Shown here: positions 15,733 through 18,408 of the stretch, in pieces | Layout of the letters: the number at the start of each line of letters is the position of its first letter | Position numbering within the stretch: the first letter of the stretch is position 1 | Virus record (IMG/VR): IMGVR_UViG_3300037189_003129 | Location: 1 to 21,536 of that record | Length of the DNA stretch: 21,536 nt | DNA from: a virus | Reading direction: 5' to 3' (one strand) | Position numbers and translations under genes: made by a program | The notes under the pieces: model-generated | Databases searched by the model: none | Seen by the model: the letters and a program-made list of their open reading frames with translations, nothing else | What the model was told of the DNA's origin: nothing

Positions 15733-17640
15733 TTAGATACTGCAACCACCTGCAGTGCAAGACAACATCTGAGCACCTTCCACATTATCATCGTACTCTT
15801 TGAAGTTATCCCAGTCTACTGACTCAGGTACTAACAGCTTCAATCGATTGTACTCTTCTTCTGTACACTCTTCATACGGGGCTTGCTTGTATGTTCCACC
15901 ATCCATAGGCAGGAAAGATACCCCTGTAACCTCATCGAAGTGTTCATATACCCAAGCACCTACAGCCATCCACTCGTCTTCTTTCACAGAGATTGTGACA
16001 GACGGCTTGTGTTCACAATAGTGTCTCTGGAATATGAGCCACAGTTTCAAGTGTTGAATAGCAGATAAGTCTTCACGTAACAATGCACCTTCAGCTACCT
16101 TCACGGGGAAACTAAACACAGTAGTACTCTCAGGTTTCATAACACATGGCTCTGCTACGAAGCCAGCCTGAATCATGAACTGAGTTAAAGGGTCTTTGTT
16201 ATCAGCCCTAACCCTGCGAATATAATACTGACTGTGTTGAGGATGAATGCCAGAGGCAGTAGAACAGAGTTGCGATACAGTGCCTTCAGGTTTGATGGCG
16301 GTAACTGCAACAGACTGATTAATACCAACAGCACTAGCGAATTCAGCATTAGTAGCAATAGCAATATCACGTAAAGCCTCCAAGCGTTTAGGTAGTTCCA
16401 GATCATCTGGATTATTTAACAATGCATTGTCAAGGATGCCAGTCATTGACACACCAAGCAATGCTTCTTCTTCTGTATTCTTCTGCCAGATCTTACGTAG
16501 GTACGGGAAGTCTGTTAAGGTCGCTTGAAATGTTCCGAGAATAGTTGCCAAGCGAATCTTGGTGGATAAAGAATCAATGCTATCAGTGCTACGAACAATG
16601 CAGCTAGACAGATTACAGAACTGGTAAGGTCTAAGAATAATTTCTGAGCAAGGATTAGTACCAAACTCATATGTACTATCACGCCTTCCGTTTTTTGCTG
16701 CTTGGGTTTGGGATGCATCACGACTAAAAATTCCTCTCTCACCTGAATGTGATTCATAAATAGATGTCCACTCACGCATGAAGTGTCCAATGCTTGGCTT
16801 CTCTTCATACACAGCAGAGTTGTTAGCTAACGCACGTTGACCATGACCATCCCACCAGTTACCTGCTTTAGCATGTGCCATGTTGTCATCTGTCAAGTCT
16901 GACAGTGAGATCATTGCTGACCTACGTACTCCACCCACAACAACAACTTCCCCGATCTTGCACAAAATGTCATGGCATTCGAGGGCAGATAAACGTCTAC
17001 CAGCTGCACCTTTGAATTTGATAATGACAAACTTAAATAAATCCTCCAGAGGTTTTGGTCCAGATGCCCTACCTCCAAAGGTCTTAAGCCTTGCACCTGC
17101 CTCACGGACTTTATGTAAGTCATACTGTGGAACTTCGCCAGAGTACAAAAGAGCAATGAGTTGTCGAAGTGATTTAGCCCATCCTTCTTTAGAATCCGAA
17201 ACAACAATAGTAGTTTGACTATTGAACATACGATCTGGGACTTCAGGTAATCTAGATACATACTTCTTCTCCACACTAAATCCTACACCTGTTCCGCATA
17301 GGAGGATGTACATAGCCTCATCAAATGCTTTAGGGTCATCAATGGGCAAATAAGAACAATTGAATGCTGCTACGTTCTGTCTCTCTAGTGCTGGTCCAGA
17401 GGTCATGACGGCTCTCATGGATGGCACTACATCTAAATCTCTTACTGCTTGTTCTAACTCTGCACGTAACTCAGGAGTCAGGGTGTAATTCTTTTTCTCT
17501 TGTAAATGCTTTGTCATAAAGTCAAAGTATCTTGCTACTGTCTCACCCCAATGCTCACGTCTGCCAAGATCGTCTATGTAACGGGAGTATCTGCTCTTGG
17601 CAATGAAGTCATTGTAGGGAGTCATTGTGTATTTCGTCAT
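15733..17640 (-). CDS. nrdJ: Adenosylcobalamin-dependent ribonucleoside-triphosphate reductase (class II)
   Basis: A 635-residue class II reductase that makes deoxyribonucleotides from ribonucleoside triphosphates using adenosylcobalamin and needs no oxygen and no second subunit. Visible motifs: Cys95 in AFNCSY and Cys342 in QFCNLSSC, the disulphide pair; Cys331 in TNPCSEI, the thiyl radical residue, with Glu333; PEGTVSQL at 451-458, substrate phosphate binding; and a C-terminal pair Cys628/Cys633 in SCTAGGCSI that re-reduces the active site. The Cys331-Cys342 spacing equals Cys408-Cys419 of the Lactobacillus enzyme. With 94 residues before the first catalytic Cys there is little room for an ATP cone. 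It is somewhat shorter than the bacterial enzyme (about 740). AGGT lies seven bases before the ATG. A strong terminator stands 31 bases upstream. Confidence 0.95.
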   Translation of the reverse strand: MTKYTMTPYNDFIAKSRYSRYIDDLGRREHWGETVARYFDFMTKHLQEKKNYTLTPELRAELEQAVRDLDVVPSMRAVMTSGPALERQNVAAFNCSYLPIDDPKAFDEAMYILLCGTGVGFSVEKKYVSRLPEVPDRMFNSQTTIVVSDSKEGWAKSLRQLIALLYSGEVPQYDLHKVREAGARLKTFGGRASGPKPLEDLFKFVIIKFKGAAGRRLSALECHDILCKIGEVVVVGGVRRSAMISLSDLTDDNMAHAKAGNWWDGHGQRALANNSAVYEEKPSIGHFMREWTSIYESHSGERGIFSRDASQTQAAKNGRRDSTYEFGTNPCSEIILRPYQFCNLSSCIVRSTDSIDSLSTKIRLATILGTFQATLTDFPYLRKIWQKNTEEEALLGVSMTGILDNALLNNPDDLELPKRLEALRDIAIATNAEFASAVGINQSVAVTAIKPEGTVSQLCSTASGIHPQHSQYYIRRVRADNKDPLTQFMIQAGFVAEPCVMKPESTTVFSFPVKVAEGALLREDLSAIQHLKLWLIFQRHYCEHKPSVTISVKEDEWMAVGAWVYEHFDEVTGVSFLPMDGGTYKQAPYEECTEEEYNRLKLLVPESVDWDNFKEYDDNVEGAQMLSCTAGGCSI

Positions 17641-17670
17641 GAATATTACCTATGTTATTGATTTTATTGG

Positions 17671-17703
17671 AAAAAAATAGGAGCACAGTAGAATCTGTAC
17701 TCC
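17671..17703 (-). terminator. Strong intrinsic terminator upstream of the reductase
   Basis: Read on the minus strand, GGAGTACAG (17703-17695) pairs with CTGTGCTCC (17688-17680) around a six-base loop, nine pairs with one G-U, followed by TA and a run of seven T (17677-17671). This is a textbook rho-independent terminator. It lies after the lipoprotein gene and before the reductase gene, both read on the minus strand, so it either ends the upstream operon or works as an attenuator for the reductase. Confidence 0.85.
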
Positions 17704-17719
17704 CAGTGGGGGGACTTTA

Positions 17720-17747
17720 GTTATACGTAGAATTTATTTTAAATCAA
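17720..17747 (-). promoter_or_regulatory. Promoter-like site just upstream of the terminator and reductase
   Basis: On the minus strand TTGATT (17747-17742, four of six consensus bases) and TATAAC (17725-17720, five of six) are separated by 16 bases in an AT-rich stretch. The start site would be near 17713, giving a leader of about 74 bases to the reductase ATG that contains the whole terminator. The -35 box overlaps an 8-base palindrome, AACTAGTT (17746-17753), a possible operator. No equally good promoter lies between terminator and reductase. Confidence 0.5.
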
Positions 17748-17777
17748 CTAGTTTTGTATGTCCTTGTTTTTATTAGA

Positions 17778-18047
17778 TTAATTTAAGGGATAGTAGTTCT
17801 GTGCTCTTGGTGCACAGGTTACATCAATTACAATGTCGGTATCCCAGTCATTCACTCTACGCTTAGCCATAATCATAATAGGTCTCATCTTCGATACCTC
17901 ACAATCCTGAATAGCTTGAATGACTTGCTGTCTGCTCATCTGTTGTGCTCTTTTTTCTACATACAGTTTAGACTCACTACCGTATGGGGAGGATGAACAA
18001 CCTACTAATGCTGCTGATACTACTGTGATACCTAGTAATACTTTCAT
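17778..18047 (-). CDS. Small phage-encoded lipoprotein
   Basis: An 89-residue protein with a classic lipoprotein signal: MK, a hydrophobic stretch VLLGITVVSAA, and the lipobox LVGC with Cys17 as the lipidated residue. Ser at +2 would send the mature 73-residue protein to the outer membrane of a Gram-negative host. The mature part is polar and helical (KRAQQMSRQQVIQAIQDCE), followed by KMRPIMIMAKRRVND and DIVIDVTCAPR. I recall similar short proteins in other aquatic phages without known function. Phage lipoproteins such as T5 Llp block receptors against superinfection; that role here is inference. AGGAGA six bases before the ATG is a strong ribosome binding site. The gene begins ten bases after its upstream neighbour and is followed by the terminator at 17671-17703. 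Confidence 0.85.
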   Translation of the reverse strand: MKVLLGITVVSAALVGCSSSPYGSESKLYVEKRAQQMSRQQVIQAIQDCEVSKMRPIMIMAKRRVNDWDTDIVIDVTCAPRAQNYYPLN

Positions 18048-18057
18048 TTTAAATCTC

Positions 18058-18408
18058 CTAGTTGGTAGCTAGCTGCCTGATTGCCCTAGCTATGACCGAT
18101 GCAAAACTCTCATTGGGTGGTACGACTACTGGTGAATCATTAAATCTTTCTACTAATCTTGCTGCTTCGTCAAGAGCATTTGCTCTAGTACTATTTCCAT
18201 ACTTCTCAGTATGTGCTACTTCTTCTTCAAGGTCAAGTATAGCATCACACAAATTCTCTTGCACTTGCCACAGAGCATACTCGATCTCTGGTCTATGGTC
18301 AAACCATTCAGTATCTTTAGCTGCAACCATAGCACAAGTGGCAATACCTAATGCTCTCTTTAGCTTTACTAAACTCTGATCAAACACTTCATCAGGCACT
18401 TGTGCCAT
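18058..18408 (-). CDS. Small helical phage protein of unknown function
   Basis: A 116-residue, almost wholly helical acidic protein. It includes SLVKLKRALGIATCAMVAAK, then EYALWQVQENLCDAILDLEE. The C-terminal ALDEAARLVERF and FASVIARAIRQL pair is a helix pattern I know from many small phage proteins with no assigned role. The start has AGGAGA well placed before the ATG. It overlaps the end of the ClpP-like gene by 17 bases, so the two are translated together. No signal peptide, membrane span or catalytic motif is visible. Confidence 0.75.
   Translation of the reverse strand: MAQVPDEVFDQSLVKLKRALGIATCAMVAAKDTEWFDHRPEIEYALWQVQENLCDAILDLEEEVAHTEKYGNSTRANALDEAARLVERFNDSPVVVPPNESFASVIARAIRQLATN

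Follow-up and report, generated by a model that had tools for sequence, protein, structure and literature searches.

We propose that the 137-nt gap in front of nrdJ, the gene of a B12-dependent ribonucleotide reductase in a virus record of 21,536 nt (the whole stretch analysed, hereafter the window), is a promoter-plus-terminator leader in which nrdJ expression would hang on read-through, a reading to which we assign a probability of about 0.5. Judged from its sequence, the leader is a real, conserved and clade-specific feature, which comprises a probable promoter, a conserved C run at the expected transcription start and a firmly predicted intrinsic terminator.

Organization of the gap upstream of nrdJ

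The window, a 21.5-kb record akin to the HMO-2011-type phages, carries its structural genes on the plus strand and an early block on the minus strand. The end of this early block is formed, in order, by a ClpP-like protease, the 116-aa gene, the 89-aa lipoprotein gene, the 137-nt gap, nrdJ and one small gene (Table 1). Within the gap TTGATT is followed by 16 nt, TATAAC, TAAAGTCCCCCC, the hairpin, a run of seven T and a weak ribosome-binding site. The first-pass annotation had thus placed correctly both the promoter-like pair upstream of the hairpin and the hairpin upstream of the nrdJ ATG. It had also described nine pairs and seven T; the seven T are present, but the stem contains 11 pairs when U-A and G-U are counted, 5 of them being G-C. 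With a folding energy of -16.8 kcal/mol (z -5.6) the hairpin was equalled in stability by none of 200 shuffles, and it is the strongest terminator-like site of the window by pairs and U run. A G+C-rich hairpin located directly before a U run, and conserved, defines an intrinsic terminator, and on these grounds we firmly predict one here.

Table 1. Features of the nrdJ leader and of the adjacent genes in the window.
Feature	Position	Strand	Basis or remark
nrdJ, B12-dependent ribonucleotide reductase, 635 aa	15733..17640	-	phrog_367, E 5e-179; Pfam RNR-II_ins_dom; ATG at 17640
Weak Shine-Dalgarno-like TAGGT before nrdJ	17648..17652	-	inference from sequence
U7 run of the predicted intrinsic terminator	17671..17677	-	invariant in 10 sequences
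Predicted terminator hairpin, TGGGAGTACAG-ATTCTA-CTGTGCTCCTA	17678..17705	-	folding; low pairwise difference in both stem arms
Conserved block TATAACTAAAGTCCCCCC, spanning the -10 and the C6 run at the expected start	17708..17725	-	low pairwise difference relative to nrdJ four-fold sites
Probable -10, TATAAC, 16 nt from the -35	17720..17725	-	invariant in 10 sequences; hexamer and spacer recur in the clade's structural-gene promoter
Probable -35, TTGATT (TTGCTT in nine relatives)	17742..17747	-	TTG the same in all 10 sequences
Small lipoprotein gene, 89 aa, lipobox LVGC, last before the gap	17778..18047	-	homologue search
116-aa gene, function unassigned, only in leader-carrying contigs	18058..18408	-	contig comparison

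Several further elements were observed in the related genomes. Another strong, conserved terminator-like hairpin (GGGGAGGGTAACACCTCCCTT followed by a T run) is localised inside the early block of two related contigs (L141 about 13102, G001 32902; L147 about 19296, G007 39096). Of the contigs checked, G008 alone has a tRNA-Thr gene (TGT, L150:2558-2631) between nrdJ and the last gene, and an integrase gene (L141:15053-15967) in the related contig G001 indicates that members of the clade may be temperate. The small lipoprotein has homologues in other phages (L087-L123), mostly 42-47% identical, and conserved hairpins follow there too.

Conservation of the leader

The same gap between the lipoprotein gene and nrdJ was found in nine other IMG/VR contigs, retrieved via the lipoprotein, the 116-aa gene and the hairpin pattern; the contigs with this gap form a small group of uncultured aquatic phages. 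The order promoter, short leader, terminator and nrdJ is kept in all ten gap-bearing sequences, and therefore the loss in close relatives that the first-pass annotation had named as an argument against its proposal does not occur inside the clade; beyond the clade, however, the order is absent. The gap is missing from the 80 best-matching nrdJ relatives in IMG/VR (about 68-89% identical), most of which have a gene of about 55 aa reaching up to nrdJ. No hairpin-plus-U was found within 600 nt upstream of nrdJ in 76 of the 77 relatives with enough upstream sequence, the other one having a weak hairpin-plus-U at -351. In cultured phages of the HMO-2011 type and of the Cobavirus group nrdJ abuts or overlaps the upstream gene; on inspection, the annotated 153-nt gap of HMO-2011 lacks such a hairpin and harbours a short reading frame missed by the annotation. 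A prophage or host origin of the leader was rejected, the hairpin pattern occurring in no bacterial genome scanned, and nothing relevant to an nrdJ attenuator in phages was found in the literature.

The analysis of the ten sequences locates the constraint within the gap. The mean pairwise difference is 0.164 at nrdJ four-fold sites, 0.139 in the gap upstream of the promoter and 0.146 in the -35 with the spacer, decreasing to 0.042 in the block from the -10 to the C6 run, to 0.025 in the 5' stem arm and to 0 in the 3' arm and U run. In the block, stem and U run together about 2 of 46 columns are variable as against 35% of the nrdJ four-fold sites (p about 7e-7, an approximate value in which columns are taken as independent and the shifted base of G006 is counted as an insertion). 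The linker between the C6 run and the hairpin varies from 0 to 3 nt, the loop differs in sequence and once in length, and linker, loop and the remaining gap drift about as fast as the silent sites of nrdJ. Since variation of the linker and loop is tolerated by a terminator, the pattern is that expected of a functional terminator preceded by a functional start region. The compensatory changes in both stem arms that had been suggested as a check were absent among the ten sequences, where only one change from A-U to G-U was seen, so that the pairing is unproven by covariation.

The 116-aa gene is present in exactly nine other contigs, all with the nrdJ leader, and was found in no others. Because its co-occurrence is confined to leader-carrying contigs, it is a candidate partner of the leader. 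Profile searches matched the encoded protein to no known family, and its structural model (pLDDT 52) was too poor for a fold search.

Probable promoter and expected transcription start

By consensus match alone the promoter is within chance. Shuffling of the 72 nt upstream of the hairpin yields a 9/12 match with a spacing of 16-18 in 13.5% of cases, the TTGCTT-16-TATAAC of the closest relatives matches at 8/12, the -10 ends in C and is thus off consensus at its last position, and promoter-like sites across the window are no commoner than in shuffles. The promoter is backed by the invariance of TTG and TATAACTA across the ten sequences. Furthermore, a TTGACA-N16-TATAAC with the same -10 and spacer as the nrdJ leader stands ahead of the structural genes in four related long contigs. 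On this comparative evidence we consider the nrdJ leader promoter probable.

The promoter ahead of the structural genes is itself separated from the first of them by about 300 nt of conserved noncoding leader in the four related phages (L140:10063-10368, G001; L145:8299-8604, G005; L146:15929-16236, G007; L151:3734-4034, G008), which may be structured. A further TTGACA-16-TATAAC, at 69 of the window, falls within an open reading frame and was taken as chance; a multi-copy class of phage promoters was also rejected, the motif of the nrdJ leader being single-copy in each of five related contigs that were scanned. A search for a phage RNA polymerase in six related contigs and in HMO-2011, with T7 as a strongly scoring positive control, was negative, and therefore the host enzyme, with host promoters and terminators, is expected to be used.

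The gap may alternatively be the plain end of the upstream unit, with a terminator imported together with the lipoprotein gene, nrdJ being served by leakage or by a weak downstream promoter and the promoter-like pair being incidental or minor. Distant homologues of the lipoprotein gene in other phages are followed by hairpins at the operon end, and therefore the terminator may have arrived with the gene as a plain stop; a promoter match within chance and a weak -10-like TAAAAT downstream of the U run, which could start an nrdJ mRNA, point in the same direction. However, the TAAAAT varies in the relatives (CAAAAT, TAGAAT) and has no recognisable -35, and the block from the -10 to the C6 run is almost as strongly constrained as the terminator, in contrast to its drifting flanks, a constraint that a plain terminator does not need. 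We regard this explanation as rather unlikely, and favour the leader with a promoter of its own.

Transcription usually starts 7 bp after the -10 and avoids C (PMC5730371). In the leader the C6 run, which belongs to TCCCCCC at 17714-17708 of the minus strand, is kept in 10/10 sequences, and 7 bp after the -10 corresponds to 17713, the first C of the run, the positions 7-12 bp after the -10 being all C; a G at 17715, 5 bp after the -10, is a possible alternative start. A start at 17713 would give a stopped RNA of about 42 nt, in agreement with the roughly 43 bases predicted earlier.

The composition of the start region raises the question of nucleotide sensing, in which initiation or slippage in the C run would track CTP, a substrate of the reductase, and so set the level of nrdJ. 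Because the expected start positions are all C, the start would depend on CTP; the retention of the C6 run in spite of the varying linker behind it, and the general avoidance of C at starts, agree with this idea. Nucleotide-sensitive starts are known for pyrC and pyrD. On the other hand, pairing of C residues added by slippage with the terminator arm would be limited to 3-4 bases, and the G at 17715 could be the start instead, which leaves this possibility very improbable. We hold it to be even more improbable that the reductase is ruled by its own substrate in the full sense, with a start or slippage in C6 that reports CTP and thereby sets how many polymerases pass the terminator 42 nt away; were it true, a CTP-reporting start would adjust the production of reductase to the ribonucleotide pool of the infected cell.

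Proposed mechanism

In the mechanism that we propose, host RNA polymerase that has transcribed the early operon would reach the strong intrinsic terminator before nrdJ, and polymerase from the probable promoter, starting at about 17713, would meet the same terminator about 42 nt on. Thus, nrdJ and the last small gene would be transcribed only by the fraction that reads through, and the terminator would uncouple nrdJ from the early operon; in the other phages examined the two are directly joined. From the arrangement of the gap we infer an active promoter, termination at the hairpin and a limiting role of read-through. Read-through may be regulated, for instance by a promoter-loaded antiterminator, or it may be a fixed, unregulated brake. 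The suggestion of the first-pass annotation that dNTP synthesis could be switched by antitermination agrees with the anatomy of promoter, terminator and gene and may be right; no antiterminator factor was identified.

A switch made of RNA alone is unlikely. The C run had been thought to compete with the GGAG arm of the terminator; the UCCC/GGGA stem would form on nascent RNA (-4.7 kcal/mol), but with -3.9 to -4.7 kcal/mol against -16 to -18 kcal/mol it is weaker than the terminator by at least about 11 kcal/mol, and the linker varies from 0 to 3 nt. Pairing of a spacer GGAGG with the CUCC arm, considered as an antiterminator, was seen by inspection in some relatives and is lost in the window and in others, and was rejected. 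Neither a leader peptide nor an aptamer would fit into the roughly 8 nt between the expected start and the hairpin. For the leader peptide of a classical attenuator no ATG was found before the terminator, and no Rfam family, cobalamin and other riboswitches included, matched the window at gathering score. The best match to an NrdR box upstream of nrdJ reached 11/16, equal to shuffles, and regulation through a pair of such boxes was rejected.

The RNA of about 42 nt might instead act in trans, with the single-stranded C run as a pairing seed and the U run as an Hfq site. With its promoter, its short and conserved seed of C6, its strong hairpin and U7, the leader has the minimal anatomy of a phage small RNA, and phages are known to make small RNAs of about 50 nt (VpdS, PMC12197685). 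No target shared at translation starts was found in the window and four related genomes, however, and the element is always directly before nrdJ, a position unneeded for action in trans; we therefore consider such a role quite unlikely.

Should read-through be regulated, dNTP synthesis would be timed by transcript elongation, beyond promoter order, in phages whose contigs yielded no RNA polymerase gene; a fixed brake would be an example of a phage lowering one enzyme inside an operon. With its length of about 140 nt, the conserved cassette would suit a reporter test.

Comparison with known systems

The nrdJ genes of HMO-2011, the CRP phages and the Cobavirus-group phages occupy the same place, in a block for replication and nucleotide metabolism. 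Unlike in the leader-carrying contigs, they abut or overlap the preceding gene and no terminator was seen. Leaders of the pyrG and pyrBI type have a homopolymer run at the start, a terminator right behind it and a gene of nucleotide metabolism, and the nrdJ leader, with its run at the expected start, is probably alike in these respects; the run is, however, of C and not of G or U, and its pairing with the terminator arm comprises only 3-4 bases.

In its layout the nrdJ leader is similar to the PR'-tR' region of lambda (PMC7171158) and to the systems of AlpA (PMC7969949) and GafZ (PMC11150451), where a promoter-loaded factor lets polymerase pass terminators. With lambda PR'-tR' and Q (also Q21 and Q82) the nrdJ leader shares a promoter, an intrinsic terminator before the first gene, the expected use of host RNA polymerase and a probable need for read-through, whereas the leader is about 42 nt long and precedes one metabolic gene instead of the late genes. 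Unlike in the lambda system, the Q families PF06530 and PF03589 were absent here from four contigs of 54.7-58.4 kb, in searches that detected their controls; in a search with PF06323 the positive control was not detected. Because no Q-family gene was found and the 116-aa gene matches no known family, we do not file the leader in the Q class and hold our reading at about the even odds given above. In the GafZ-controlled promoter of the Caulobacter GTA the terminator comes after the first gene (PMC11150451), and not before it as in the nrdJ leader. The AlpA-controlled promoter of alpBCDE in Pseudomonas has its terminator between the promoter and alpB (PMC7969949). AlpA and GafZ both load between the -35 and the -10 (PMC7969949, PMC11150451), and the spacer of the nrdJ leader is partly conserved in this region (AATTTTAAG), its conservation being moderate, with a pairwise difference of 0.146 for spacer and -35 together.
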